NCBI GenBank assembly: GCA_017999835.1
Contig: JAGNLA010000004.1
Location: forward strand, 62,001 to 126,000
Reading direction: 5' to 3'
From: Caldisericia bacterium
GTDB lineage: Bacteria > Caldisericota > Caldisericia > JAAYUI01
Length of the DNA stretch: 64,000 nucleotides
Shown: in pieces, positions 3,210 through 46,436 of the stretch
How positions within the stretch are numbered: position 1 is the stretch's first letter
Layout: each line of letters opens with the position of its first letter
Notes under the pieces: model-generated
Told to the model about the DNA's origin: nothing
Databases searched by the model: none
The model's input: the letters and a program-made list of their open reading frames with translations, nothing else
Program-made: the position numbers and the translations under genes

Positions 3210-3350
3210 CTATAACAATTTAAGTTTTTATCTCGTAAAATACTTTGTTGGTCTTAATTACTCATTCTTGAGGCTAGCAATACAGCAAAATGTTTAAAAG
3301 AATGTTTGAAATTGTTATATTTGTTATAAATCGATAGCATGGAGGAGTAT

Positions 3351-29741: not shown

Positions 29742-31544
29742 CTAGAATCTGATGTTTCCCCAATCAGATGTCCATAATCCATCACCGTCCATGCACGTCC
29801 AGGGTGTGGAAAAAACCTCGCCTGTGCCGAATGGAATGTTTCTGGGACGTTTGATTTTTGTGTCGTAGTCAATCTTGAGGTTGTCGAACGAAACGTTGAT
29901 GTTTTCGATAGTCTCGTCACTTATGAATGCGAATGGTTTTTTGAGCCAGTTTTCAAAAGTAGCATTGGAATCATAAACATTCTCTGCAATCTCAATGGCA
30001 AAACCGACAAAGAACCTTCTGCCAACATCCTTTCTCAGATCGTGAACCAACCTTGTCTCTATGATTGTCAGTTCGCCTTTTTGGTGGAGGTGGATCGTGG
30101 CATCACTTGATGACACAAACGGCCTGACCATGACAAGATCGTTGTCAGTTTTTATTGCAAACGGTGAGTCCGGCTTTGGTGGGTTATCAAGCACGATTAT
30201 CTCTGACTTTGGAAAAAGGAAAGCCAGTGAAAGTCTGTTCATGTCAAAGTCTGGCTCTTTATATGTTATGTCAAACAGCTGCAAGGCTTTGTTCTCATCC
30301 TGAACCGTGAACACTGGAGTTTTTATGTGGTTGTGGCCTGAACCACCGCCAATCTCAGGGAGTTTTTCAGGCGAGTCGTTGATGGCAATCACAGGTACAA
30401 ACGAGCACAACCACAACGAATCCTGCCTGTCAGCAACAAGGTTTCTGTCCTGGCTACCATAACCCATGCCCGAAGTGCCAAGCACAAGACTCTCACCAAA
30501 CCAGGTTTTTCTGACAGCCCAGAGGTCAGGAGCCCACTTGGATTCGAAGGTGAAAGACTCTTCCAAACTCTTCATCCACAAGCCAGTCACCCAGTCACCG
30601 TTTCTGTGACCGAAAAAAACGTTGAGAACAGACGATACATCTTCGACATCCGGGATTTTTCCTGACAGTGCCATCTCCAGATAGCTGCACGATTTTCCTT
30701 TTCCAGAGAGCACATCGTACGATCTGGAATTTGCACCAAGGAGAGCCTTTGGTCTTTTGAAATGTAGAAGCCCATCGGCAATCAGAATGTCAGCTGCCGT
30801 CATGGCCAGTTCCACTGCTCTTTTGTCTTTGCTGTAAATCTCTATTACGCTCAGAGCCCGAAGGTCAACGGCAAGGTAGGTCGGGCTGTTGAATTCGGTC
30901 ACACCGTTTCTTTTTGTCCAGTCCATCCAGTTTTCCAGCGCAGCAACAGCCAGGGATTGACCAAGTCTGTCCTCGCAATATTCGGAGGCAAGCAGCAAAT
31001 CGGCGCAATACATCAGATGATAGTTTGTATGCCCAATTGCCTCAGGTTTGACGTGGTTTGGGTACCATTTTGCCGCCAACCCTTTTGAAACCAGACTCAT
31101 GGAAGCAAGCGCCAATTTGCGGTTGCTTTCAGTCAACCTTTCAGGCATGCCAAAAACCATGTGGAAGACAGGTATGGGATTGAACATGTCCCACTCAAGT
31201 CCGTCGGTTTTCCCCAGCAATTCCTTGTAATACCAGGAGCCATAGTACGGGCTTTGTGGGTCAGCAACCTGCATTGGAAGATATTTTGCCAGAATTTCGT
31301 TGGCCAAGTCGTTGTTGGATTTGTTGTCAGTTGCAAGAAGGGCAAGGGCAAAATAAAACTCCTGCCTGCATGAAGGAATTGCCCCGGTGTTTTTGAAACG
31401 AAGCTCAGAAAGACTGTATGCTCCACTGTCAAGAACAATTTTTACCACTTTTGAAGCAAAGACGTTTCTGACATTTTCATTCATCGGCATGGCAAATCCA
31501 GGCATGACCAAAACAATGGCGATTAGAATGCAGAGTTTTTTCAC
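29742..31544 (-). CDS. Secreted (alpha/alpha)-toroid polysaccharide-lyase-like protein
   Basis: The 600-residue exported protein has a signal peptide (MKKLCILIAIVLVMPGFA). Residues about 30-330 are helical with conserved-looking pieces SPYYGSWYYKE, AIGHTNYHLMYCADLLLASE and EFNSPTYLAVDLRALSVIE. This pattern recalls the alpha/alpha-toroid domain of alginate lyases and heparinase-like proteins. The C-terminal half is beta-rich (AIKTDNDLVMVRPFVSSSDA; then ATIHLHQKGELTIIETRLVH). A lyase activity is inferred from fold impression only. It starts at GTG 31544 with a weak AGGT site and lies 37 bp downstream of the propeller array, probably in the same transcript. Confidence 0.65.
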   Translation of the reverse strand: MKKLCILIAIVLVMPGFAMPMNENVRNVFASKVVKIVLDSGAYSLSELRFKNTGAIPSCRQEFYFALALLATDNKSNNDLANEILAKYLPMQVADPQSPYYGSWYYKELLGKTDGLEWDMFNPIPVFHMVFGMPERLTESNRKLALASMSLVSKGLAAKWYPNHVKPEAIGHTNYHLMYCADLLLASEYCEDRLGQSLAVAALENWMDWTKRNGVTEFNSPTYLAVDLRALSVIEIYSKDKRAVELAMTAADILIADGLLHFKRPKALLGANSRSYDVLSGKGKSCSYLEMALSGKIPDVEDVSSVLNVFFGHRNGDWVTGLWMKSLEESFTFESKWAPDLWAVRKTWFGESLVLGTSGMGYGSQDRNLVADRQDSLWLCSFVPVIAINDSPEKLPEIGGGSGHNHIKTPVFTVQDENKALQLFDITYKEPDFDMNRLSLAFLFPKSEIIVLDNPPKPDSPFAIKTDNDLVMVRPFVSSSDATIHLHQKGELTIIETRLVHDLRKDVGRRFFVGFAIEIAENVYDSNATFENWLKKPFAFISDETIENINVSFDNLKIDYDTKIKRPRNIPFGTGEVFSTPWTCMDGDGLWTSDWGNIRF

Positions 31545-31581: not shown

Positions 31582-34122
31582 TCACTTAGCGCCCCAGACA
31601 GTCACCACCACCGATTTCTGTAAGGAGCATGATATCGGAATGCCGTCAAACAACGGTCTCCCTTCCTTGTCAAAGTCGGACAGTTCAGAGTTTGCTGTGT
31701 CAAGAAGTCCATTGGATTCGATGATCACGGCGATGTATTTGAACGAATTGCCAAAAGTATTGGCAATGTCTTCTTTTTTGAAATTTAAAACTTTCGTTCC
31801 CCCTGACTTAAGACCGTCAATTTGTTGTTTGCTTACTTTGGTCAGGTCAACAAACAATGGCTCCCCTCCATTGTCACCCCAGCAAACAGCATAAGCCACA
31901 CCGGACAAGTTTGGTGACAGACCATCTTTTCTTGTCATTACCAATTCAAATTGATGTCTACTCCTCCTTTTGATGGAAAAAGTAGGGCAGGGGTTAAGCA
32001 TTGAAATTATATTATTACCCTGAATCAATGGTCTGGAATTGTATTCGTTGTAGAATTCGCTGAAAAGAGCATGACATCCTGACTTTGAATTCACGAAATT
32101 ATTCCAACACCCGATAGAATCTTGTATTTTCTCACCCCTGTCAGAAAGGAAACCCGATCGGTGTGAATAGAAAAAATCGTAACCGATATAATCAGGGTCT
32201 ACCATATCTTCATTGTACTTAAAGCATTCCTCCATGTCATCAACCAGGTCATGTTTGCACAGATAATCCTGACCTGTTGATGGTGCGCCAAGACTTTTTT
32301 TGTAATAAAGAGTATTGCCTGAGATGGCATAAGCTCCAGCCAACAAGATATGCCTCCCATCAGTTCGAAGCACTGAATAGTCTACCTCTCCTTCGGCAAC
32401 CTCAAGAAGGACGTAATCCTGTTGAACCTGCTTGACCCTTGTGCGTTTGGACAGTTCCTGCCTGAACACAAGCTCGGAAGTGCCCTTGTTGAAACAATAA
32501 ATGACATTTTTGGGAGACGTGTTACCATACATATAATTTGATTTCAGATGAACATAGAGATGTTTCCCACTTTGGTAGAAATCCGAAGTGGCTTCGTGAT
32601 CCTCATCTTCTCCTAATTCCATTTTACCAATCACTTTACCTTGTGACAGACTGTAAACTTCAATGCAATTGGTTCTGAAAAGGTAGAATCTGTCTCCCGA
32701 AACACAGTTGTAAGGTAAGAACTGTTGTTTCTCCTCAAAGGACAACTTGAATGTCTTGCCAGGTTTCGTAGAAGACAGTTTATAAAACTCGAAATAATAT
32801 TCGTTTGAAAGCGTTATATGATTATTGTCGGAAATAGTTTTAAACTTTGCCACCCAAAAACCATCTTCTGAAGGAAAGATGTTGGTGCTGTCCTCAGGTA
32901 ACCTTGTTACACTTTCAAGCACTGGGCAATTTTCATCATCAAGCTTGTAAACTGCTTTATATGGTTTGTAATTCTCATCAAACCCACTGCCAACAACATA
33001 TCTGTCACAGCCATAACTTAAGAATCTTGCATTAGCCGATAATGGGATAGTTTTTACTATCTCGAAACTTTCCAAATCATAAACAACCAGACCGTTTGAT
33101 GTTTTTTCAATTAGGTTGTTACCACGAAAAGCACAATAAACGTCTGTTTTGTAACCATAATCTTTTTCCCATTTCAGCTTTCCAGTGAAGATGTCAATAA
33201 TAACGTATTTTGTTTCGGGTTTCCATTTGACTGGTATAAGCATTAAATTGTCTCTTAGTTCATAGTCTGACGCTGACAAACCATTTTGAAGATCACAAGG
33301 CAATTCAATGTCAAAACTGGACAATAAAACTCCTGTTCTGCTAAACCTGACCAAATTGGTTCTTCTCTCATCCAGGTAGCCGATAGTATAGATGACATCT
33401 TCATCAAATTTTGTCATAAATCCTAAATCAATTTTTGAAATATCGATAATCTTGTTTGACCCTGTCAAATCCACTATCGCATTGCTTGACACAAAGGACT
33501 TCTCATCCCAGGAATACCTTTCATCACAGGTCAAAATTTTATGCCATGTTACCGTATCAAAAAGCTCGTAGGAACCAATAGCCCTAAACAGTATTTTGTC
33601 TTTTGAAACCTCTGATATTTTTGTTACCTCAAAGCTATCTCTTTTATAAACAATTTTTGATGTTTCAGGATTGTAAAAACAGAGCATGTCTGTCTCATCT
33701 ACAAAACAAACCATGTTCAGTTTTGGAAGATACCTGGCATTTGCAGATGTCAAAAAAATTGGTTCAACCTGTTCATTCTCAATGTCAGCGTACAATTTTG
33801 AATTTGAATTCATGCTCTTGTGCACATGGTCGCCAAAATCAATTTCAAGCTGGTATTTTCCGCTGTTGAAGATTTCGTAGCCGTAATTACCCGCGTTTGA
33901 GCCAACAACATTGAACTTGCTGTCAAGAATCAGTCCATCCGGAATGGTGTAGCCGTCGGTAGGTATTGTTATGTGACCTCCATGCACTATGCTCTTCTCG
34001 GGGAGCACTGGCAGGATGTTTTTCTTTACCATGTTTGAAGACCCGATGGAAACTGATGAGGTTATGAGAAATGCCATTATGGAACTTATAAAAAATATGA
34101 TTTTGACGAACCTTTTGCTCAT
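31582..34122 (-). CDS. Propeller array paralogue 6: secreted beta-propeller protein with conserved C-terminal tail
   Basis: The 846-residue protein has a signal sequence (MSKRFVKIIFFISSIMAFLI) and about 650 residues of irregular PQQ/WD-like beta units (YDLESFEIVKTIPLSANARF, VYSLSQGKVIGKMELGEDED). The C-terminal sandwich starts at CPTFSIKRRSRHQFELVMTR and ends in ESNGLLDTANSELSDFDKEG ... VVTVWGAK. AGGGGTGGC before ATG 34122 is a good ribosome-binding site. The last 130 codons resemble paralogue 5 very closely, while the rest does not. Role unknown; it is probably displayed outside the cytoplasmic membrane. Confidence 0.75.
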   Translation of the reverse strand: MSKRFVKIIFFISSIMAFLITSSVSIGSSNMVKKNILPVLPEKSIVHGGHITIPTDGYTIPDGLILDSKFNVVGSNAGNYGYEIFNSGKYQLEIDFGDHVHKSMNSNSKLYADIENEQVEPIFLTSANARYLPKLNMVCFVDETDMLCFYNPETSKIVYKRDSFEVTKISEVSKDKILFRAIGSYELFDTVTWHKILTCDERYSWDEKSFVSSNAIVDLTGSNKIIDISKIDLGFMTKFDEDVIYTIGYLDERRTNLVRFSRTGVLLSSFDIELPCDLQNGLSASDYELRDNLMLIPVKWKPETKYVIIDIFTGKLKWEKDYGYKTDVYCAFRGNNLIEKTSNGLVVYDLESFEIVKTIPLSANARFLSYGCDRYVVGSGFDENYKPYKAVYKLDDENCPVLESVTRLPEDSTNIFPSEDGFWVAKFKTISDNNHITLSNEYYFEFYKLSSTKPGKTFKLSFEEKQQFLPYNCVSGDRFYLFRTNCIEVYSLSQGKVIGKMELGEDEDHEATSDFYQSGKHLYVHLKSNYMYGNTSPKNVIYCFNKGTSELVFRQELSKRTRVKQVQQDYVLLEVAEGEVDYSVLRTDGRHILLAGAYAISGNTLYYKKSLGAPSTGQDYLCKHDLVDDMEECFKYNEDMVDPDYIGYDFFYSHRSGFLSDRGEKIQDSIGCWNNFVNSKSGCHALFSEFYNEYNSRPLIQGNNIISMLNPCPTFSIKRRSRHQFELVMTRKDGLSPNLSGVAYAVCWGDNGGEPLFVDLTKVSKQQIDGLKSGGTKVLNFKKEDIANTFGNSFKYIAVIIESNGLLDTANSELSDFDKEGRPLFDGIPISCSLQKSVVVTVWGAK
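31631..31725. repeat. 95-bp block, copy 1 (tail of paralogue 6)
   Basis: This block matches 34329-34423 at about 90 of 95 positions, without gaps. It encodes the tail ESNGLLDT(A/T)NSELSDFDKEG and the start of the following residues. The rest of the two genes is far less similar. Confidence 0.85.
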
Positions 34123-34282
34123 CTTGCCACCCCTTATCTCGCCCTATGTTTATGCAATCCATAATATGCGCCTGTCATGAAAATATGGGGATAGTTCAGA
34201 TGAATAATCGCTTAAGAATATTTATCTTTCCTACAATTCTTAATGTTGTGAATTTGAGCTTCGCATATGCATGTTTCTGGTT

Positions 34283-36805
34283 TTATCTGCCCCAAACAGT
34301 CACGACAACCGACTGTTGCTTTTCATAAGATATCGGAATGCCGTCAAACAATGGTCTCCCTTCCTTGTCAAAGTCTGACAGCTCAGAGTTGGTTGTGTCA
34401 AGAAGTCCATTGGATTCGATGATGAGTCCAAATCTGTTGGTGCCGTTTTTTAGAGCATCAAGAAACTTCTCTGTTGGTTTGAACTCTAATGTTACCTCGT
34501 CACCAGTGCCTGATTTTTTGATTCTTAAATCGGAATATGAATCTAAAAACACCTTTGGTGTGTTTGCGTTATCGCCCATGACCACAAGCCTGACTTTGCC
34601 TTCAAGCAGGGGAATATCCTGCCCTGAAGAAGTAACATCCAGTTCAAATGAAAAATTGCCTGTCCTTCTGAGAGAATAAGTTGGACAAGGCCTGTATTGA
34701 TATATGGAGTTGTCAATAGCTTCCACAAAACCATCTGTTGTGGTCATCGACACTTCCATGTTTCTCTGGTTGAAACTGGCTATTGTGGGATAGAGAAATA
34801 CTCTTCTCCCCATATCAACTACATAATTGCAGCATTTCACAACTGAGTTGTCTGTGACTATCTGAAAGTCTGTCAGGTTGTCGTAAAAATATTGGTCGAT
34901 ATCTTCTGGCACTGTGTATGTTTTTTTTGAATTTCCATTAAACGATGTTTCAAACAAGCTCTTCGAGGTGACATTTGTAGAAGGATCATAGGCATTGTCA
35001 TGTATTGTGAAAAAAGAGTTCTTAAGCATTCCAAGGTACTTGGGAAGTTTGTAATCTGTTTGTGGCAGTTTTCCATTCATGTCGAAGTTATAAAGAAAGT
35101 TGTCAAAATAAAGGTTATCTCTGATTTCGGTATTGATGTTGAAACAATTGTTTTGGTCTGTTAAGCTCGATACTAACTTGTTTTTATCAATATCTATAAC
35201 GTGAGTCACACATGTTGTGTCCAAAACTACACAAAACTTTTCGTTGGCAAGCATGGGTCTTGGTAAAGTCAGTAAACGTCGACCAACCTTCTCGGTAAAT
35301 TCAATTGTCTGTACCTGACCATCTGCAAGTGAGACAATGCTGAGAGATTTTCCTGTACAGTCTACAAGAAGCCTGTCGCCGACAACCGCCGAGGATAGCA
35401 TGCATTCTCCTCCCCAACCAGGCAATGAAAACTCCTTTATCTTCTTTCCGGTACGAGACAGAAGCTGGGGGGTTCCAAACAACTGGTTGTTCGGAACCCA
35501 TAAAATGCCTTGTTTTGTTGGTATCAGAGTTGTCATACTGGGATAATCATTGCTCAGCCTGAAATAGTCTTTTGGCTTTGAGATTATTGGAGACATTGAC
35601 CCAAACAGGGAAAGGTGCTCATAATTTCTGCCATTGGCATCTGTGCTCTCCCAATTCATGTACATCTGTCCTGCAAAGGATTGGAAAGAAATGATGCTTT
35701 GTCTTGGGATGCTCATCTCTTGCTTTCCTGTTTTCAACCCGATGCACATCTGTCTGTTTTGATTGTTTACAAATAGGTGCTTTCTGTCATCTGACAATCG
35801 CAAGCTCATGGCCCAACGGTTGCTTTCAAGAGTGTAGTAGGGTTTCTGTTCTCCTAATTTGGCAAGAAACATGACATGTCTAATCTTTATGTAATCATCT
35901 TTTCTCTCGTATTGCTCCTGTTGCCCGATCAAGGTTCCATTGACAACTGCAGCTATACTAAACAAAAGTTTGTTGGTAAGTTCATACCTCCCAAGTTCCT
36001 TGCCATCAAACATATCCCTTTTGACAATCTCATAATGTTGCATTTCCTGAAGTGTTTTGCCTTCTTCGTACTTCTCAAAATGATAAAGAGAGATCACATT
36101 ATTTCCGTCAAAACCCAGGAATTGCTCCTTCGGGTTGAGAGTCCACAAAAGCTTCATAAACCTTAGGTCTATTACCATGTTTGAAACTATGGCTATCCCA
36201 TTTTTGTATGGATAGGGTAAATTGTCGATTATTTCAGGATTATTATACTGCTTGATGTCGATGTCATTAACCAGCATCTTGAAATCCCAGGTATTGTCAC
36301 CTTCAAGGTCAACGACAAGCAAAACATCGTAATATTGATTGTCGTGACCGGGAACAGTCCGTTTGAATTTGCTTATGATGGCATAATGGTCAAAGATATT
36401 TATTGAACCGATAAAGTTTAAATATCTTATGGTTTTAGTAAGGTTGTTTCCTTTGTAGACCATTACTTTTTTGTTTTTCCAATCCTGAAAAACAGTATAT
36501 CCATTGATTTGCTTTGCATTCTGCCCCTGATAAAAGTATACATTGTTGGGTCTCCTACCCAACAACGAGAAATATTGCACACCAATCAAAGCTTCACTGA
36601 CCGGACTTTGCGATACTGCTGGTTTTCCATTTTCACCATAATCTCTGTTGCCCTGATAAACCCTTGCTGGGAGCATGGGTCTTGAAATGTCGGAGTTTTC
36701 GTAGTAGCCCCAACCATCATAACCTCTGCTTGGGTCAATATGGTCAGCAGTTGTAACAACTGACATCCCGACAACTGTACAAATTATTAAAATGCTCAGT
36801 TTCAT
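34283..36805 (-). CDS. Propeller array paralogue 5: secreted beta-propeller protein with conserved C-terminal tail
   Basis: The 840-residue protein has a signal peptide (MKLSILIICTVVGMSVVTTA), then beta-propeller-like units (GKELGRYELTNKLLFSIAAV, LSIVSLADGQVQTIEFTEKV). The C-terminal sandwich starts at CPTYSLRRTGNFSFELDVTS and ends in ESNGLLDTTNSELSDFDKEG ... VVTVWGR. AGGAGAAG precedes the start, which is 13 bp downstream of paralogue 4. A 160-bp gap separates it from paralogue 6, the longest spacer of the array. No catalytic motif was seen. Confidence 0.75.
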   Translation of the reverse strand: MKLSILIICTVVGMSVVTTADHIDPSRGYDGWGYYENSDISRPMLPARVYQGNRDYGENGKPAVSQSPVSEALIGVQYFSLLGRRPNNVYFYQGQNAKQINGYTVFQDWKNKKVMVYKGNNLTKTIRYLNFIGSINIFDHYAIISKFKRTVPGHDNQYYDVLLVVDLEGDNTWDFKMLVNDIDIKQYNNPEIIDNLPYPYKNGIAIVSNMVIDLRFMKLLWTLNPKEQFLGFDGNNVISLYHFEKYEEGKTLQEMQHYEIVKRDMFDGKELGRYELTNKLLFSIAAVVNGTLIGQQEQYERKDDYIKIRHVMFLAKLGEQKPYYTLESNRWAMSLRLSDDRKHLFVNNQNRQMCIGLKTGKQEMSIPRQSIISFQSFAGQMYMNWESTDANGRNYEHLSLFGSMSPIISKPKDYFRLSNDYPSMTTLIPTKQGILWVPNNQLFGTPQLLSRTGKKIKEFSLPGWGGECMLSSAVVGDRLLVDCTGKSLSIVSLADGQVQTIEFTEKVGRRLLTLPRPMLANEKFCVVLDTTCVTHVIDIDKNKLVSSLTDQNNCFNINTEIRDNLYFDNFLYNFDMNGKLPQTDYKLPKYLGMLKNSFFTIHDNAYDPSTNVTSKSLFETSFNGNSKKTYTVPEDIDQYFYDNLTDFQIVTDNSVVKCCNYVVDMGRRVFLYPTIASFNQRNMEVSMTTTDGFVEAIDNSIYQYRPCPTYSLRRTGNFSFELDVTSSGQDIPLLEGKVRLVVMGDNANTPKVFLDSYSDLRIKKSGTGDEVTLEFKPTEKFLDALKNGTNRFGLIIESNGLLDTTNSELSDFDKEGRPLFDGIPISYEKQQSVVVTVWGR
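34329..34423. repeat. 95-bp block, copy 2 (tail of paralogue 5)
   Basis: Partner of 31631-31725; about five mismatches in 95 bases. The lack of comparable identity elsewhere in the two genes points to local gene conversion or to strong constraint on the tail. Confidence 0.85.
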
Positions 36806-36818
36806 TGCACTTCTCCTG

Positions 36819-39251
36819 TCATTTTCCCCATTCAGTCACAACGACTGCTTTTTGCTTTTCCTGGTACAACGGGTTGCCTTCGAAGAGCGGCATTTCGTAG
36901 GATTGATCAACATTTTCAAGTGCTGATTTGGATGTGTCCATCATTGCGTTTGACTCAACATAAACCACGCAGTGGCCACTGGCAACGGCCTTGCCAAACT
37001 CGAGCTTCTCACCTCCACTACATGCAAAATCCATATCTTCGAACTCAATAACCTGCTCCTTGCCCATCAGATCAGCTATCCAGATTTTGCCTGATATTTC
37101 CTTTGCTGACAGATTCTCCAACACCAGACAGCCATCACCACGGTTAAGGGAGAACGTTGGGCAGGTTTCAAAAAATACTCGGTTTTTCGTATACCAGGTT
37201 TCATCCTGGCCAAGATCAATGGCCATCGTGGAAGACATGGTGTTGACTTCCTTTATGCTATCAGATGCAGAACCTATTCGAGGGAGACTGATTTTCTGGA
37301 TAAACTGACCGGCTGTGTCATAAATTGCCCCGGGACCGACAATCAAGCCGTCTTTGACAATATCTCCCATAATTTTGGACTTTGTAGGAAAGGTCTCAAA
37401 CTCGCCATCCCTGAATATGGCAAACTCCTTTTCACCTGAAAAATAGAGAGTATCATTATCTGCATCGATCAATGCAAGTTTCTCATACGGCGTGACTTCG
37501 CCTGTTTTCCGGTCAAGGATTCTGGATTGAAACGGAAAACCTGATCTAAACAAAATAAATCTGTTCCCTGCAAACTCTGGCCATGTAACACCTTCGGCAA
37601 TATCGTAGACTCCTTTTTCGCCAGTAACAAAGTTTTTTACTATAACGAGCTTTGTCTTGGATTGAGTAAAAAGCAATTCATTGTTCTGATCTCTTATAAA
37701 CATTGAATCTTCATCAACTTCTTGCTCATAAACAATTCGAATGGAGGTTTTATCAGATGTCATGACGATTAGCTTGCCATCAACCTTTGTGGCAAAATGC
37801 CAGTGACCGTTTGAAAGGAACGGGTACAAAAAACTGTCATACTTTATTGGTGGTTCCAATGTCTTGACCGTGCCATCAAGTTCATGCCTAATCACATTGA
37901 AAATGTGTTTGTAATCGTTTTGGACAACCTCGAGAACGCAGTCCAACTCGGTGTAGATTATTCCTTTTTGATCAGTTATGGTCACTTTTCTGTCAGGAAA
38001 CTGGGCATGGACAAGGTCTATCCAGTTCCTGCCATCAGTATAACCTGAGTTGGATATGACCCACTGACCGTCGCAGCTGCCCTTGGTCAACAACTCTGTG
38101 TTGTTGCGCTTCCAGAGTTTTCCAGTCTGGGTGTCGTAGCAGAAAATGTCAGACTTGTCCATGTAAACGATGTGCCTGCCGTTGTCTGTATAACCTTTGT
38201 AATCCAAATAGTCGAAGCCAACGACAGGGTGGGAAAAAACAACTTGTTTTGTGTTGATGTTGAGAATTTCGAATGAGTGACTTAAGACGTTTTGGTAGTA
38301 CACAAAACCATTGAAAGAACCATTAACCGAAGAGTAATTTTTTCGGTCATCCATAATAGGAATATCAGTCTCAACCTCTTTTATTAACTTATTGTTGGTC
38401 AAACTCCATTCCTGATAGAAAAATTTGTACTTATCATCTTTAGTTTGCATGTTATTCAGATAAAGAAACGATATTGTGTCATCCTGGATTCTGGCTCCAT
38501 ACAAATGAATATCTCCAAAATCAAAAACCAGCTTCCATGTTCTTGTGTCAAAAACACGACCAAACATGAAAAGATAGTCTCCGACAGACTTGTGTCCACC
38601 CATCCCATTGTTGTGCTTGAAAACAGTATTCAATACATTTTTGCCGCTATCCATCTCATAAAGCGAATAGGTGTAATTGTTATAAGCATTTATATAAACA
38701 TACCATTTCCCAACCCTGTAGATTATCGAATCCCCGTAACATGCCATGTGCCAAAGCTCACCCTCTACTCCAACTTTGTAGAATCTGTATATGTGGAAAT
38801 CGCTGTAGCTGGGCGTCTCTACGACAAAATAATATCCATCCGGGTATATCTCATCTACGCCGCATCCTGAGGAATAAAACCTTTTTTTGTCCGTGTTTTT
38901 GCATTCGAGGTTCCTGTTTGGCAGATACCGCTTGCCATCCTCAGCCTGGACGTAAGGAAAGTTGCCGCTTGGACCTTTGTTGGTTTCAGCTGATATGGAA
39001 TTTAGAATGTATGAGTTTGAAGAGGCAGGCAAGACAACATTGTCCATCTGCTTGCCGTCGCTGAGCGCAAAAACCTTCTTGCCGGCAAAACCATCCAGCT
39101 CGAGCCACTGATCGGTAATCTGGCTTACTTGGGTAAACATCCCTTCACGGCTTGCTGGCAACATCGGCATGTTTGGCGTTTGCGCCGACTGAGCCATACT
39201 AAACCCATACGATGAAGCTATCAAAACAACCACCAGCAATATCTTCTTCAT
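36819..39251 (-). CDS. Propeller array paralogue 4: secreted beta-propeller protein with conserved C-terminal tail
   Basis: The 810-residue protein starts at ATG 39251, in an ATGA overlap with paralogue 3; a TTG at 39263 lies inside the ribosome-binding region. The signal peptide is MKKILLVVVLIASSYGFSMA. Propeller-like units include the array-wide central blade NGRHIVYMDKSDIFCYDTQT. The terminal domain begins CPTFSLNRGDGCLVLENLSA and ends ESNAMMDTSKSALENVDQSY ... VVTEWGK. The GGGGTGG that codes for the Trp-Gly-Gly end of paralogue 3 doubles as its ribosome-binding site. Confidence 0.75.
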   Translation of the reverse strand: MKKILLVVVLIASSYGFSMAQSAQTPNMPMLPASREGMFTQVSQITDQWLELDGFAGKKVFALSDGKQMDNVVLPASSNSYILNSISAETNKGPSGNFPYVQAEDGKRYLPNRNLECKNTDKKRFYSSGCGVDEIYPDGYYFVVETPSYSDFHIYRFYKVGVEGELWHMACYGDSIIYRVGKWYVYINAYNNYTYSLYEMDSGKNVLNTVFKHNNGMGGHKSVGDYLFMFGRVFDTRTWKLVFDFGDIHLYGARIQDDTISFLYLNNMQTKDDKYKFFYQEWSLTNNKLIKEVETDIPIMDDRKNYSSVNGSFNGFVYYQNVLSHSFEILNINTKQVVFSHPVVGFDYLDYKGYTDNGRHIVYMDKSDIFCYDTQTGKLWKRNNTELLTKGSCDGQWVISNSGYTDGRNWIDLVHAQFPDRKVTITDQKGIIYTELDCVLEVVQNDYKHIFNVIRHELDGTVKTLEPPIKYDSFLYPFLSNGHWHFATKVDGKLIVMTSDKTSIRIVYEQEVDEDSMFIRDQNNELLFTQSKTKLVIVKNFVTGEKGVYDIAEGVTWPEFAGNRFILFRSGFPFQSRILDRKTGEVTPYEKLALIDADNDTLYFSGEKEFAIFRDGEFETFPTKSKIMGDIVKDGLIVGPGAIYDTAGQFIQKISLPRIGSASDSIKEVNTMSSTMAIDLGQDETWYTKNRVFFETCPTFSLNRGDGCLVLENLSAKEISGKIWIADLMGKEQVIEFEDMDFACSGGEKLEFGKAVASGHCVVYVESNAMMDTSKSALENVDQSYEMPLFEGNPLYQEKQKAVVVTEWGK

Positions 39252-41596
39252 TTTCCACCCCAATGTGTCATGCTAAATATTTCATTTGACTGTTCAATAT
39301 TTCGTCCGTTCCATAAAGGTTTGCCGAAGTCGTTTTGACCTTCCGACAGGCAGGATGAGTCAAGAAATCCATTGGATTTTACAACAACAAAACAGTCTTC
39401 ATTTTGAAAGTTGTTTGGTAAAATCAAACTTTTTCCAGACACCAAATCCAAATTTACCCCTTCATCCAGCCTTGCTACAAAATCCTCACCAGTGTCTTTT
39501 GCTACCCAAGCCCTTCCTTGCAGCTTGGCTGTTCCGGTATTGGAAAGTTCAAAACCCTTTTGTGTTTTTACTATTTTGTACAGAGCCGGTGTACCAAGCT
39601 GTACCGTGACAAGGCAGCGTTGACCATTCACATAACAAAGTTTCCCGGCAATCATTTTAATCTTGCCAAAATAATCGTTGTAAAGACTTTGTATTTTCCG
39701 TCCATTTGAATCGTACAGCCAATTATCATCGGCAAACAAGCCGCCAGCTGCCGATGTCGCTTTGCCATCAATCTTTGCCTCAGTGTACAAGTTTCCATTG
39801 ACAACACCAATTGCGCCTTCGTACGTGTAATGCACGGTCTCGCCTTCAACATCCAAAACCTTCAGGTCTCCACCCCTGACCATCTGACCGGTGAGGATGT
39901 GGGTGATAAATTGATGCTCCCCGCCTGGATTTTCTATCAGGAAACCGTCTTTTAGCCAAAAGTATGTTTTGGGTTTTACTTCCAAAACCCTGGTCACCTT
40001 GAGCTTAGAAATGTCGACAATGACAGCACGGGTGTCGCTTGTTCGCAAAGCCAGCCTGTCTTTGTCAACAGAAAAACTGAAGTTATCAGAGTCATTTGGT
40101 TGTGAGAAAACTTTCGTCCAAGTTGATTTGTCATATTTGTACAAAACAAAAGCCTTGTCTTCTTTCATCAAGGCAAAAACGTCGCTTTGGAATAAGAAAA
40201 GCTGAATCAGGTTCTCTCTTGTTTTCTCAATGACTGGAACAGTACGCTTGCTGCCATTCCATGAATATATTTCGAGCTTGCCGTCGTTCCAAAACACAGG
40301 GCGGTTGCTCAGCCAGTCAAACAAATAATAGAAAATGACCCCGCTGTCACCTGGCAATACATTCCATAGCTTTTCTTCCGGGTCAATTGGAATCTTGATG
40401 GATTTTAGAGGATTTGTCAGGCTAAAAACCCTTAAGGTTGCATTGTCAAACTTCTCTATATAGTAATCGTTGCCAATGCTGCGTTGACCCATTGGCTTGT
40501 CCATCCGCCAGGCAAGCTTTCGCTCAAGGGTATCAAAACAAACTATGCTGTTGCCGTGTGTTGAGACAATATACCTGTCGTTGTCGACATAATTCCGATA
40601 ACTAGAATAAGATAAAAATTCAGGTTCGAAAAAAACTGATTCACCGGTTTTTGGATCAACTATCTCAAATCCTGGTTCTTTAAAGGTTTGAAAATATGCC
40701 AGTCCACCTGCCATACCCCTAATGGTGTCAGCAGAACCATACCCATCCTTTTTGATTGGCAGTTCTTTGTAAAATACAAGGTGCTCACCTGTTTCAAGGT
40801 CTACCGCCCAAAATCTGTAGACATTATGCTCTTTGTCATTATACCATTCGTACAAAACGCCATTTACCATTTTCAACCCTACATTTTGTTCAGAAAAATC
40901 AGCCATAACTTCAAATGTCTTGAGGTTCAGAATCTTGTTGTTGCAAAATAGATAGTTCCCTTCAATATTGCGTATGTGATGAATCGGTTCGTCGAAAACA
41001 TGCTCCAGTTTTAAATAGGCTTTGTCAAAGAACAGTGCATTCTCCGGCGTGCTGATCACCAAAAACCTGTCGATTATCATCGCCCTGAAGATGGAACCCA
41101 TAAATCGTGCAGTTGTAAACTTTAGAATGACAGAACCTGTAACCGAATCGATTATTTTGACAGTATTGACTGATCTATTATGGTTTTCATCCACTTTCAG
41201 AAACCATCCGTCAGACATGTAGACCGGCTGAATGTTTTCCCTGCCAAGATATTGCCTGCCTCCAATGCTACTGAGAGCGTAGTTTTTGTTGTTTGTCTGA
41301 ATCCAGTTGTAGCTACCCCAACCTTTCCCAACCTTGAACAACCATTTCTCGACTGAGAGCCAGTCAATATCGTTTTCACCAATTTCTTTGCCGGTTGCCA
41401 CATCAAGGAATTTGGTTTCAAAGGAGTTGCCAAGCATGACGTATTTGTCGGTCACTTCCAACCTGTCATAACCGTAACTTTTTACACTTCCAAATGAAAA
41501 AGGCATTTGAACAGCTGTTTGCCCGTTGGCGCTAAAACCAACATTTGACCACAGCAAAACAACGACAATCCCTAACCCAAGCAACCGTACTCTCAT
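39248..41596 (-). CDS. Propeller array paralogue 3: secreted beta-propeller protein with conserved C-terminal tail
   Basis: The 782-residue protein has a signal peptide (MRVRLLGLGIVVVLLWSNVGFSA). The propeller part includes NDRYIVSTHGNSIVCFDTLE and KVLDVEGETVHYTYEGAIGV. The terminal domain has lost the CPT start (it reads GTPALYKIVKTQKGFELSNT) but keeps VKSNGFLDSSCLSEGQNDFG and ends THWGGK. GGTGGAGG precedes ATG 41596. It overlaps paralogue 4 as ATGA, the tightest junction of the array. Confidence 0.75.
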   Translation of the reverse strand: MRVRLLGLGIVVVLLWSNVGFSANGQTAVQMPFSFGSVKSYGYDRLEVTDKYVMLGNSFETKFLDVATGKEIGENDIDWLSVEKWLFKVGKGWGSYNWIQTNNKNYALSSIGGRQYLGRENIQPVYMSDGWFLKVDENHNRSVNTVKIIDSVTGSVILKFTTARFMGSIFRAMIIDRFLVISTPENALFFDKAYLKLEHVFDEPIHHIRNIEGNYLFCNNKILNLKTFEVMADFSEQNVGLKMVNGVLYEWYNDKEHNVYRFWAVDLETGEHLVFYKELPIKKDGYGSADTIRGMAGGLAYFQTFKEPGFEIVDPKTGESVFFEPEFLSYSSYRNYVDNDRYIVSTHGNSIVCFDTLERKLAWRMDKPMGQRSIGNDYYIEKFDNATLRVFSLTNPLKSIKIPIDPEEKLWNVLPGDSGVIFYYLFDWLSNRPVFWNDGKLEIYSWNGSKRTVPVIEKTRENLIQLFLFQSDVFALMKEDKAFVLYKYDKSTWTKVFSQPNDSDNFSFSVDKDRLALRTSDTRAVIVDISKLKVTRVLEVKPKTYFWLKDGFLIENPGGEHQFITHILTGQMVRGGDLKVLDVEGETVHYTYEGAIGVVNGNLYTEAKIDGKATSAAGGLFADDNWLYDSNGRKIQSLYNDYFGKIKMIAGKLCYVNGQRCLVTVQLGTPALYKIVKTQKGFELSNTGTAKLQGRAWVAKDTGEDFVARLDEGVNLDLVSGKSLILPNNFQNEDCFVVVKSNGFLDSSCLSEGQNDFGKPLWNGRNIEQSNEIFSMTHWGGK

Positions 41597-41669
41597 GACA
41601 AGCCTCCACCGAACTTCTATACAGGAAGTACCGAATGTCAGCAGAGTGGGTTCAGCTCAAAATTTGATA

Positions 41670-44075
41670 TTATTCCTGTGGTTTGTTCCACAGCGTCAGC
41701 GTCCAGGCTGTCCCGTCGTAATCAAGTTGTGAGCCTTCGTATGACATGTATGATCTTTGTTTTGGCGACACATCCATTTTGTCCATGTCCAAAAGTCCAT
41801 TGGCGTTTATGGCCAAGAGTTGCTGACTTGTTCCATCAAGCTTTGCCAGCTCAATGCTTTTGCCTGGTTCAACAGAAAAGGTGTGTTTTTGACCAAGCTT
41901 TACCACGGGGAAATCTTCAGTTGCGCTGCCAAGGCAAAAATATCCTGTTAGCTTTTCCTTGGCAGTATTATTGATGACTATCGAACCGTCAATGTTTTTC
42001 AGGGAATAGGTTTGGCATGGCTGCAACTGCGCCCTAACTATGCCGTGTGACAAATAATTTATGAATACCTTTTGATCCTTTGTCCAAATGCTTGAGTCAT
42101 GGTTTAGAGTCAACTGTTGGCAAAATTTACCGTCTGGAGTGTATAAAATCCCTCTGTAGAGGATCAGCCCATTGGCAATAGAAATTGTTTTATCGTCGTT
42201 GCCTTTGAATGGAATTTTGGTCTCAAGCTCTTCGGTTTTCCCGTCAAGACCAATCTTTGTAATCTTGTTATTTTGTATGGTCCAGAATTCACCATCATCA
42301 AAGCCGATGTAATTGCGGTGCAGCGACAAATCCAAGGTCTTTCCCAAAGCAAGGTCGATAACCAGAAAACCTCCTCGCTGATAATAATCAACTGCGAAGT
42401 TGCCAACAAAAACTATATTACCTAATCTAGGATGCCCGTCGATAATTTTGGTTTCGCCTGACTTGGCATCAAACACAAAGAGCTTGGTCTGGCTATGTCC
42501 AACAATGAATCTGTCGTTGGAAACAAAACCAAAATATCCATTTTCCAAATCCTGCACCATTTTCCAGGTTTTGCCTTCAAGCTTGTATAACTTTGATTGC
42601 TCCTTGGTATACGAGATCAGATATGAGGCACCTCCGGCGTCAAGACAGCAGTGGTATTGGATTTCTCCATTTGACTCCATAAAAACCGGCAATTCTTTTT
42701 CGGAGCCGTCAAAACCATATCTGAGCATCTGAATTGTGTTGCCAACTTTTTGCGAGATAATGATGCATTTTGGCATGGAAAACAGCTGCACGTTTGGTCT
42801 GTTTAGTTTTTCAACTGGTAGTATCAAATTCTTTTGAGGGTTGTTCATATCAAAGTACTTGACCATGTCAGAAGATAATGGTGAAAAATATAGATTATCT
42901 TCTTCGGCAGGTAAACAGTGAATTGAAACCTTCTTTTCCCAGACCATAGTATTAATTTCTGTATCATAACAATACATTGAGCCACCATCGGTGAAAACTA
43001 TCTGCTTGCCATTATCACAGGCATTGTAACCTCTCGATAATGGATTGAACTTTCTTTCGCACTGCAAAAGTCCTGACGAAAGCTGAACCAGCTCAAACTT
43101 GCCAGAAGCTCCGTTGAACATATAAGCAATTCCATTGACAACGCCATACAAACGGCCATCTGGCATAATGTATCCATCGTTTTGCCTATGACCCAGGGAT
43201 AGATTGTAAGTTTTTATCTTCCTGGTGGACAAATCATAGGAGTTGATAGTGTATTTTCCTACACCTTTTTCATCAATCTCCCATGTATAGCAAACATTGT
43301 CAGACAGGGACAAAACGGTTCTTGCTCCTCTGGCTTTGTATTTGACCTCAAGGGTTTTAAAGTCCAAAACAACATTCCAAAGCTGGACAAGGTTTCCAGA
43401 AATCCTTGGATAACTGGATCTGCCTTCGGCATCAAACATCAGTTCAAGTTTTCCGGTTTCAATGTCAACGATGTTGACTTTTGAGTTTATTCCTATAACC
43501 AGATGATTGTCAAAAACAGATAAACCTGGATAGACATTATAAACGTCTGTATTGAGAATGTCTGTATTGAAAGTGTATAGCTCCTTGCCGGAACCAGCTT
43601 TGAAAACAGTGACACTGGAGTATTCGTTCATTAAGTTGCCATTGTACCTTGCGCATATTCCGCGTCTGTAATCAAGAACTTGAATGTGACTGTTTTTACT
43701 GTCAGTGCCAATGGCATAAGAGTCCAAGCCGTCAGAATTGACCATGTAATATCTGTCTGCTGTTTCGAAATATGCATCTTTTGCTATCAGCCAATTTGGC
43801 GAAAGCGGATCATTGTCGATTGACATGTAATCCACTCTTTCTTCTGGGACAACGTCACCGCTTTCAAGATCAATGTACATGTTACCGCCAAAATCGCCCC
43901 TAAATACTGCATACTTGCTGTTAATATTGATACGATTCTTAATGTGGTTTGAAGAATCTGCTTTTATCAAAAAAGGCATGGCTGGTTTTGTGTCTGACGC
44001 CACTTGAATAGTTTTGTCCGGATATGACAGAGTAATCGCTAAAACAATTGCCAGTCCAATAATCATTTGCTTCAC
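41670..44075 (-). CDS. Propeller array paralogue 2: secreted beta-propeller protein with conserved C-terminal tail
   Basis: This is an 801-residue protein. GGAGG at 44079-44083 (minus strand) fits GTG 44075 rather than the GTG at 44087, giving the signal peptide MKQMIIGLAIVLAITLSYP. The propeller part has NGKQIVFTDGGSMYCYDTEI and FVFDAKSGETKIIDGHPRLG. The terminal domain starts CQTYSLKNIDGSIVINNTAK, and the tail is divergent (INANGLLDMDKMDVSPKQRS ... TLTLWNKPQE). Role unknown. The 73-bp gap to paralogue 3 shows no terminator. Confidence 0.73.
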   Translation of the reverse strand: MKQMIIGLAIVLAITLSYPDKTIQVASDTKPAMPFLIKADSSNHIKNRININSKYAVFRGDFGGNMYIDLESGDVVPEERVDYMSIDNDPLSPNWLIAKDAYFETADRYYMVNSDGLDSYAIGTDSKNSHIQVLDYRRGICARYNGNLMNEYSSVTVFKAGSGKELYTFNTDILNTDVYNVYPGLSVFDNHLVIGINSKVNIVDIETGKLELMFDAEGRSSYPRISGNLVQLWNVVLDFKTLEVKYKARGARTVLSLSDNVCYTWEIDEKGVGKYTINSYDLSTRKIKTYNLSLGHRQNDGYIMPDGRLYGVVNGIAYMFNGASGKFELVQLSSGLLQCERKFNPLSRGYNACDNGKQIVFTDGGSMYCYDTEINTMVWEKKVSIHCLPAEEDNLYFSPLSSDMVKYFDMNNPQKNLILPVEKLNRPNVQLFSMPKCIIISQKVGNTIQMLRYGFDGSEKELPVFMESNGEIQYHCCLDAGGASYLISYTKEQSKLYKLEGKTWKMVQDLENGYFGFVSNDRFIVGHSQTKLFVFDAKSGETKIIDGHPRLGNIVFVGNFAVDYYQRGGFLVIDLALGKTLDLSLHRNYIGFDDGEFWTIQNNKITKIGLDGKTEELETKIPFKGNDDKTISIANGLILYRGILYTPDGKFCQQLTLNHDSSIWTKDQKVFINYLSHGIVRAQLQPCQTYSLKNIDGSIVINNTAKEKLTGYFCLGSATEDFPVVKLGQKHTFSVEPGKSIELAKLDGTSQQLLAINANGLLDMDKMDVSPKQRSYMSYEGSQLDYDGTAWTLTLWNKPQE

Positions 44076-44147
44076 GGCAACCTCCACAAATATTGGTTCT
44101 CAGTCATAAATACAGCAATGGCAAACAACCGGTTCAGCAAGCCGGAC

Positions 44148-46436
44148 TCAGTTGGTCTCGAAGATATTGATGACCTCACCGTTTTGCAGGCTAATTGATC
44201 CCAGCCAGGCAGGTTTTTTGTTTGTGTCGGAATTGCTTGAATCCAGAAAGCCATTTGTCGAAAAAAATACTGTCGATTGAGATTCGCCGACATCTAGCAT
44301 AAAAGATTCTTCTGGAGCAATGTCCAAAACAATTGGTTCCTTCAGCTTTGCGCAAACCAGACTCACAGAGGGTTCAACCCAGCATTCGCCTTTAAGTGTT
44401 GTTTTGCCAATGTTTTTTATAACGATTCTGCCTGAATCATTTGAAATTGAAAACTTTGCAGATTCAACAACTTCATAAATATTGATTTGGTTGCCCCTAT
44501 CCTGGCGAATGCACGTTTTGCCATTCACCGTTACAATCGTTGTACCAAACATTGATTCCGGCAGTTCCTGACAGAATCTCCCATCGCGGTCGAACAGAAG
44601 ATTATCGGCTAGCAGCAAACCGTTTGAAGCTGAGTATTTCCCATACTTGTCTATTGCTTTTGCGTCAAGGATTTTCTCTGTCAGCTTCCCTTTTATGAAT
44701 GTTTTGAAGGTCTGGCCATTAACCATGTAGAGTGTATCCTTGTCCGAACCAGCAATTTGACCGGCGTTCTCATCCAAAACCTTGCATGTTGATGGTTCAA
44801 TAACCATGGAATCGCCGCCAAAGAAAACAACAAGCAAACCCCCGGCAAAGCAGAATTGGGAGTGTTCTTTTGCTTCAATCGATTTTGCAATGTTTGTCCC
44901 AAGGTTTAGCACCTTGATGTGGGTTTTGTCACTGTAGAAAGCCAGAAACCTGTCGGACTGGCAAAAATATGAATGCCCTTGATAAACATTTGACTGGTAA
45001 ACCTTTGACCACCCATTGTTGATGTGTTTGAATAATGTTGCTGTCTGTCCATTTTCCACCCAGGCATAAACAATGCACTTGAAAACAAAAGGCTTTATCA
45101 GATTCTCATTGCCATCCGGCAATTCATCCAATTGTGAAACTTTCCCGTCCCAGTCAAAACGCCTCAGAATTCTCTGATAACCCTGTCCGGCAACATCGAG
45201 CGACAGCACGCAGCTGTCGCTTGGAAAAATGAAAGGCATGAGGTGACCTTTGTCAATACTGATATTTACAGACTTTTTCGGGTTAGACAGCCCAAAAACT
45301 CTGACAGCAGATTCATCCATGACCGGTTCCCAGAAAAAACCATTGCCCAAATCCTGGGTGCTTGTCACAAATTCCTTTTCCCAAAGCATCTCTTTGCTCA
45401 TGCTGTCAAAGCAGGACATCTGGGCAGAATCAAAAAACAGGATGTGTCTGTCATTCTCATAAAATCCCCATCTTTGAGAATGAATTTGGCTTATTTGGTG
45501 GCTGAAATACACTTCTGCTGTCATTGGATCAATTATCTGGGCACTTCTTTCTCTGTCATTCCAGCACAGGAAAAGACCGTTGCAGATGCCTCGGGTGTAG
45601 CTTCCCTGTGGCATGTCAAGATTATCATTTTCTTCTTTCCCTGTTTTAAGATCAATGGATTTCCAATCCAACTCGTTCTCAGGTAGAAAATAAACCCTCC
45701 CAGAATCAAGCATAATCGATTCATTGTCAAACTTTCGAACACTTTCCATCTTGTCAATATCTATCAGGAATTTGCCCACAAGGAGAAAGTTTTCCCATCT
45801 TTGACATCTGAAAAACCCAACATCCTGAATCGAAAGCTTTAGCTGACCAGTCAATAGACCGTAGAAATGACAGGCATTGCCAACATTTACCAGCAACAGA
45901 TCGTCAATTGCTTCCGCTCTAGGCAGGTTTTCGTTGGTTGGAACAGCAATCTCATTCTCCCAGAGCATGTTTTTGTTGTTTGCATTCCAAACTGAAAACA
46001 ACGCTTTGTCATCATTATTTTTAAGAAACCTGCAAAACAGGCCATCGTTTAGCCTTAGAGCTTGCGAACTGTCTGTTGAAATGAACTCGTCGCCATTCCA
46101 GTTTTGGGTGAAAGTGAAACTTTTCACTGACAGGTCGCCATCCGGCAGTCGTAGATACGTTTGGCTAGGAGTGTCGTCTTCAAAATCCTCAGCCTGGGTT
46201 GGTTCGCCTGTCTGCACGTCAAGAAACGACAAACCATCGGAATCTTTTGTGACCACATATTTGTCAGTGAGTCGGTAGATGCTTGGTGTGACAAGCAGGG
46301 GTTTGCCAACGGATAATGGAGGATTAACAATGTTTCCCTCGGATCCATAGGCAGCACTGGACAAAATGACGAAACCAATGAGCCATGCAAAGAGAGCTCT
46401 CTTCAATATAGGCTTTCCTAAGGAGCCTTGTTTCAT
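44148..46436 (-). CDS. Propeller array paralogue 1: secreted beta-propeller protein, most divergent tail
   Basis: The 762-residue protein has a long signal sequence (MKQGSLGKPILKRALFAWLI ... AAYG). Its units include the array blade NDRHILFFDSAQMSCFDSMS and FLDVQTGEPTQAEDFEDDTP. The terminal domain is recognisable (KFSISNDSGRIVIKNIGKTT, FFSTNGFLDSSNSDTNKKPA) but lacks the final Trp-Gly. It is first in the array in transcription order. No promoter was identified with confidence in 46437-46520. Confidence 0.72.
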   Translation of the reverse strand: MKQGSLGKPILKRALFAWLIGFVILSSAAYGSEGNIVNPPLSVGKPLLVTPSIYRLTDKYVVTKDSDGLSFLDVQTGEPTQAEDFEDDTPSQTYLRLPDGDLSVKSFTFTQNWNGDEFISTDSSQALRLNDGLFCRFLKNNDDKALFSVWNANNKNMLWENEIAVPTNENLPRAEAIDDLLLVNVGNACHFYGLLTGQLKLSIQDVGFFRCQRWENFLLVGKFLIDIDKMESVRKFDNESIMLDSGRVYFLPENELDWKSIDLKTGKEENDNLDMPQGSYTRGICNGLFLCWNDRERSAQIIDPMTAEVYFSHQISQIHSQRWGFYENDRHILFFDSAQMSCFDSMSKEMLWEKEFVTSTQDLGNGFFWEPVMDESAVRVFGLSNPKKSVNISIDKGHLMPFIFPSDSCVLSLDVAGQGYQRILRRFDWDGKVSQLDELPDGNENLIKPFVFKCIVYAWVENGQTATLFKHINNGWSKVYQSNVYQGHSYFCQSDRFLAFYSDKTHIKVLNLGTNIAKSIEAKEHSQFCFAGGLLVVFFGGDSMVIEPSTCKVLDENAGQIAGSDKDTLYMVNGQTFKTFIKGKLTEKILDAKAIDKYGKYSASNGLLLADNLLFDRDGRFCQELPESMFGTTIVTVNGKTCIRQDRGNQINIYEVVESAKFSISNDSGRIVIKNIGKTTLKGECWVEPSVSLVCAKLKEPIVLDIAPEESFMLDVGESQSTVFFSTNGFLDSSNSDTNKKPAWLGSISLQNGEVINIFETN

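Follow-up and report, generated by a model that had tools for sequence, protein, structure and literature searches.

Apparent concerted evolution of a C-terminal module in a family of predicted exported propeller proteins from Caldisericota

An array of genes from the Caldisericota encodes large, predicted exported proteins that join a long propeller head to a C-terminal beta-sandwich module (the tail). The DNA of this tail is homogenised by recombination, beyond mere conservation, a point that is central here and was absent from the preliminary description of the locus. Judged from the sequence comparisons set out below, the low divergence of the tails is concerted evolution by gene conversion and exceeds what constraint alone would produce. 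Our preferred reading, held with moderate confidence, is of a two-part exported family in which tail DNA is overwritten between members, the tail would serve in docking or export, and the heads would be freed.

The window (the whole stretch of 64,000 nucleotides that was analysed) belongs to a 1.89-Mb draft genome that is 93%-complete. As already described, six consecutive minus-strand open reading frames of 846, 840, 814, 782, 805 and 762 codons occupy positions 31582–46436. P1 (31582–34122, 846 aa) is an exported twin-propeller protein with a tail, as predicted from the propeller tree and a structural model, and P2 (34283–36805, 840 aa) is an exported propeller protein with a tail, as predicted from blastp and the propeller tree. 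P3 (36819–39263, 814 aa), P4 (39248–41596, 782 aa), P5 (41670–44087, 805 aa) and P6 (44148–46436, 762 aa), the first gene of the array, were assigned from open reading frames and blastp. The TTG start of P3 overlaps the stop codon of P4; translation may instead begin at an ATG (MKKILL...) that lies four codons downstream. The six genes lie head to tail with gaps of at most 160 bp or a short overlap, and are followed on the same strand, 37 bp downstream of P1, by a gene for a 600-aa protein with a signal-peptide-like N-terminus (29742–31544, minus strand). The array is probably one transcription unit, and the 600-aa gene is possibly the last gene of the operon. The 600-aa protein has no known family and no PDB match, and its gene was not found in 60 other genomes searched. 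A simple scan detected an N-terminal hydrophobic segment in all six array proteins, and no lipobox, C-terminal membrane segment or LPxTG motif in any of them.

The tails, all on the minus strand, were placed at 31585–31995 (P1), 34286–34693 (P2), 36822–37169 (P3), 39251–39595 (P4, diverged), 41673–42023 (P5, diverged) and 44151–44465 (P6, the most diverged and assigned via P3–P5). The proposal that the six proteins are homologous held from end to end for P3–P6, for which pairwise blastp gave E-values of 1e-15 to 1e-47 over 510–820 residues at about 22% identity; P1 and P2 are joined to the rest by tail matches only. Similarity between P1 and P2 is restricted to the last ~144 aa (48.6% identity, E 4e-30), and both match the tail of P3 at 1e-8 to 1e-10. 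A tail profile built from sister-genus tails only, with ~900 shuffled decoys as a control, recovered P1 (5e-37), P2 (1e-28) and P3 (6e-11), all above the decoys. Matches to P4 (0.02) and P5 (0.08) were weak, yet above all decoys (best 0.64), and P6 was not found with this profile. P4–P6 are therefore placed in the tail family through their full-length homology to P3, with P6 also linked by full-length similarity to P4 and P5.

Several signatures named in the preliminary description were recovered in these proteins. The motif C-P/Q-T-F/Y-S-L/I, said usually to open the sandwich, is present in P1, P2, P3 and P5 (four of six); the Trp-Gly reported at the end of four proteins lies near the end of P1–P4; and the central blade motif, expected in at least four, occurs in P3–P6. 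The tail motif S/A-N-G/A-x-x-D is found 36–44 residues from the end in all six, except that P6 has T at its first position.

Occurrence of the tail is limited to a single Caldisericota family. Seven copies were detected in the genome of the window, six in the array and one in an 862-aa protein on contig 11. Four sister-genus genomes (Caldisericales MAGs) carry 2–7 copies each, 56 other relatives (49 from the same class or phylum) yielded no tail at E<=0.01, and a scan of an 85k-species collection found the tail only in these genomes and two short contigs. The nearest relatives with the gene family are Caldisericales/Caldisericia MAGs, some of them apparently named after digester samples. The two short contigs with these genes, L048 and L052, come from bins labelled 'Bacteroidota bacterium'; L048 is most likely misbinned, since a 3,426-bp stretch of it also occurs, without a difference, on a Caldisericales contig. 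Near the seventh copy, a 618-aa lipoprotein-like protein (L012:5640-7496) has an apparently similar plan, with a propeller-like head and a short C-terminal sandwich-like segment. In the literature searched, no paper was found that treats Caldisericota together with propellers.

The clearest pattern of homogenisation is seen in the sister genus, where, as throughout, the genomes compared are draft MAGs. Paralogous propellers within a genome share ~25% of amino acids and ~41% of nucleotides and are synonymously saturated. The tails of these paralogues are 73–97% identical in amino acids in genome G001 and 61–96% in G003, and 66–95% identical in nucleotides (mostly 80–95%), with synonymous sites alike too (dS 0.20–0.72). 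In G001, for example, the heads of paralogues A and F are 27% identical in amino acids and saturated at silent sites, but their tails are 97% identical in amino acids and 95% in DNA; four-fold sites are identical at 61/68 positions in the tail versus 18/57 in the rest (p=1e-11). Between species, orthologous tails show the opposite tendency, with a dS of 0.52–0.82 versus 0.16–0.41 for the propellers of the same genes, and a pooled four-fold identity of 213/296 versus 1016/1211 (p=5e-6). Orthologous tails are more diverged at silent sites than their heads, and have therefore been replaced after the species split. Thus, 3' segments of paralogues within a genome are closer to one another than those of orthologues, synonymous sites included.

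Tree comparisons point in the same direction. Orthologues group together in the propeller tree (support 0.98–1.0), and the head segment appears to keep orthology and not to recombine. In AU tests, tail DNA rejected the groupings A+A (p=0.039), F+F (0.0009), P1+F (0.0002) and P2+A (0.003); for B and E, an orthologue clade was not rejected (p=0.22 and 0.12, respectively). Branches in the tail tree are long, and none of its nodes is starred. Tracts shared between paralogues start at the propeller/tail boundary (about -451 bp) and have the stop codon as their other limit. The tails also look mosaic, with the alternative blocks TREDGRDLVLKGEVYL / TRTDGLADVWKGEACL and ENNQKGEGKYF / PQVKDSSTLKYF occurring in varying combinations.

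Within the window, homogenisation is limited to P1 and P2. Their putative conversion tract covers 135 bp on each side (31591–31725 in P1 and 34289–34423 in P2, both on the minus strand), with 85% DNA identity between the two. dS is 0.54 over the last 45 codons versus 2.7 in the remaining tail, and 14/20 four-fold sites are identical in the tract versus 17/56 elsewhere (p=0.003). Codon bias was ruled out as the cause of this silent identity, because only 25–42% of four-fold sites in the same region are identical in between-genus pairs. The earlier statement that propellers have diverged far more than tails is clearly borne out for P1/P2 and for the sister genus, but not for P3–P6, whose tails have diverged as much as their heads (heads 23–26% identical, tails 20–31%). 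In the propeller tree, P1 is sister to sister-genus class F (support 0.98) and P2 groups with classes A/D (support 1.0); the paralogue classes therefore predate the split of the two genera.

The position bias of the tail is absolute. Each of the 22 copies that run to a stop codon terminates 36–44 residues after the SNGLLD motif, which is kept across genera, and in every copy found the tail is C-terminal and attached solely to a propeller head. No Pfam or NCBIfam model matched it above cut-off in the window proteins or in 20 family members, and the tail profile, run against PDB sequences, returned one chance-level match (E 0.3). The isolated tail was modelled as a beta-sandwich (pLDDT 77.7, pTM 0.75). 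Foldseek found nothing for this model at E<=0.001; the best match had an E-value of 0.024 and a TM of about 0.3, and the weak matches were mostly Ig/FN3-like entries. Membership in the Ig, FN3 or CARDB families was not supported, as no profile of a known Ig-like family matched above cut-off. The preliminary description would have been contradicted by a tail that proved to be an ordinary Ig/CARDB domain with no preferred position; the tail is instead strictly C-terminal and, lacking a confident PDB match, is Ig-like by weak fold matches only.

The heads are probably tandem propellers of about 12–13 blades, as judged from the model of P1 (pLDDT 69, pTM 0.62), in which residues 129–667 contain about 51 strands and a separate sandwich follows. 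Foldseek matched this model to tandem WD-propeller proteins with good E-values, and repeated four-stranded blades are present, though global TM is low. None of the six proteins falls in a Pfam or NCBIfam family above cut-off. PQQ_2 came closest, at 22.7 bits against a gathering cut-off of 27.6, and 4/20 family members gave weak matches to PQQ/BamB-type propellers. The likeness to BamB and to PQQ-type and WD-type propellers (PF13360, PF13570) consists of these weak profile matches in the head and of the tandem-WD folds. The window proteins are about twice as long as BamB, carry an extra C-terminal sandwich and stay below Pfam cut-offs, and membership is not claimed.

How such proteins might be held at the cell surface bears on the first alternative. 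The preliminary description proposed a surface family with variable propellers and a common C-terminal module, which is supported, and saw in that module a possible new general sorting or anchoring signal, which is not supported. A signal of this kind, read by a dedicated processing enzyme, would fit the strict C-terminal position, and the lack of a transmembrane segment, lipobox or LPxTG motif makes another retention route plausible. However, we regard it as unlikely. The tail does not mark exported proteins broadly, being present on the propeller family alone, both in its own genome and in the 85k-genome collection; it is a folded domain of ~140 aa and lacks any cleavage tail, hydrophobic or basic; and no dedicated partner gene accompanies the arrays, with no conserved neighbour among the sister arrays to fill that role. 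Sortase substrates were rejected as a model for the tails, with no LPxTG-like motif or hydrophobic C-terminus found in them and no sortase found in the 93%-complete genome. The C-terminal domain (CTD) of type IX secretion (T9SS; TIGR04183) is likewise a C-terminal beta-sandwich common to otherwise different exported proteins, but the tail is about twice the length of that model (72 positions) and occurs in a single family. This candidate was set aside too, as the tails have no Por_Secre_tail match and the genome no TIGR04183 match at E<=0.1.

Other parts of the envelope were also searched for in the window genome. No Omp85 (PF01103) match was detected, which agrees with the absence of BamA from Caldisericum exile despite its outer-membrane-like envelope (PMC4104836). 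SLH domains occur on only two ORFs. Cu_amine_oxidN1 (PF07833) has 117 matches in the 1.9 Mb, most on large ORFs, and is probably the generic surface module of the lineage; in the window it lies at 39–2600, 3339–7940 and 55415–57628, and is C-terminal in all three. Like the tails, it is a module common to large exported proteins, but it is carried by many different proteins, and none of the six tails showed a match to it.

Arrays differ in content between genomes. At one conserved chromosomal site, G001 holds F, G003 holds F-B and G002 holds C-D up to the contig end. The site is flanked on one side by genes that we take to be MetK and a lipoprotein, and on the other by p159, p470 and what is presumably GuaA, with no more than two genomes matched for either flank. 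The differences in gene order are only suggestive and may partly be assembly errors, since the genomes are draft MAGs and contain repeats. For one junction, a second, independent assembly provides confirmation: along the 3,426 bp that run from the tail of A through B to the start of C, L048 and L049 are 100% identical. DNA upstream of paralogues C and E (~110 bp) is 80–98% identical, with heads only ~28% identical. This element (TTAAACCAGAAAAAAGCCCGAAGGGTATTAG...GCCAAGGGCAAACAGGCTTTTGG), found at L054:7635-7741, L055:7631-7741, L049:5402-5514 and L047:652-760, is common to different paralogues and hairpin-capable. It had no Rfam match at gathering level, with chance-level matches only at loose settings, and its folding z-scores (+0.4 to -2.6) gave no consistent signal. 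The B tail with its downstream DNA matches the D tail with its own at 87% over 522 bp. In G003, a 470-aa gene is duplicated beside two tail arrays (L050:6504-8150 and L047:8550-10209), flanking DNA included, at 85% identity, which suggests segmental movement along with the arrays.

These exchanges could be read as a diversity-generating system resembling antigenic variation, in which tail and intergenic DNA swap propeller cassettes between expression sites. The differing gene content at the same site, the shared DNA upstream of C and E, and the match between the B and D tails with their downstream DNA are in keeping with this. We nonetheless think it improbable, as every copy that is not truncated at the edge of a contig appears intact and has its own signal peptide, neither silent cassettes nor inverted copies were seen, and host immune pressure is not known for these organisms. 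The heads are, moreover, under purifying selection: propeller dN/dS is 0.16–0.29, and positive selection on whole heads was not seen.

A slowly evolving structural domain, conserved without any recombination between paralogues, is very unlikely to account for the tails. In favour of this view, tail dN/dS is low, at 0.06–0.07 in three orthologue pairs, 0.10–0.24 in others and 0.04 for A-F, compared with 0.04–0.07 in housekeeping genes and the higher values of the propellers; the motif is conserved across genera, and the tails of P3–P6 are not homogenised. However, synonymous sites are homogenised, the tail and propeller trees conflict, and orthologous tails exceed their own propellers in synonymous divergence. 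For the sister genus this explanation is contradicted, because protein constraint cannot yield the synonymous pattern. An assembly artefact, in which the draft MAGs would have collapsed or wrongly joined tails of nearly the same sequence, is scarcely credible: several contigs do end inside tails, as repeats would, but tails within a genome differ (66–95%), L048 matches L049 exactly, the P1/P2 tract sits within one contig, and the dS of orthologous tails is raised, not zero.

The preferred reading, concerted evolution in a two-part exported family, can be outlined as follows. A lineage-specific family of exported proteins combines a long propeller head with one C-terminal beta-sandwich module. 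As the sequences show, the DNA of this module is repeatedly overwritten, through gene conversion or homologous recombination that acts both inside single arrays and from one array to another, as the heads continue to diverge. The tail may dock all members to one envelope partner, or serve a common folding or export step, and either need would keep it uniform under strong purifying selection. Uniformity would be favoured because every head must fit the one partner, and the heads could then take on differing ligands. The common tail and intergenic DNA could also provide homology arms by which genes are re-sorted from one array to another. We infer the docking role, since the analysis yielded neither a partner nor a ligand and none of the genes accompanies every array. 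Propeller dN/dS lies well below 1 and gives no direct indication that the heads are under diversifying selection. The divergence of the heads and the copying of tail DNA between genes suggest binding heads that vary on a single docking part, shared by all and strongly conserved. A more far-reaching proposal, possible but on balance doubtful, is a surface repertoire maintained by recombination, with a uniform docking module, interchangeable twin-propeller heads, and tail and intergenic DNA as exchange arms, in cells with no detectable Omp85, sortase or T9SS tails.

The protein module is new, and its genetics match the concerted evolution known from Helicobacter pylori, where a 3' segment (segment 3) of babA/babB and homA/homB evolves in concert via intragenomic recombination (PMC2795765; PMC4552749). 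In both cases, exported paralogues have an outward variable part, 3' segments within a genome cluster by gene conversion, and the paralogue content of a locus varies, between strains in H. pylori. The proteins are unrelated, so the likeness is one of working and not of membership. Bab and Hom are outer-membrane proteins, whereas here a soluble-looking beta-sandwich sits behind a propeller and no outer-membrane machinery was detected; there are also more paralogues here, and the hosts are uncultured Caldisericota.

To our knowledge, the best-documented cases of concerted evolution in the 3' module of surface-protein genes come from a few pathogens, among them H. pylori. Its apparent occurrence in this lineage suggests that a design with a constant anchor and variable heads is not tied to host immunity. 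The tail also provides a defined module with which to seek the attachment point in the Caldisericota envelope.
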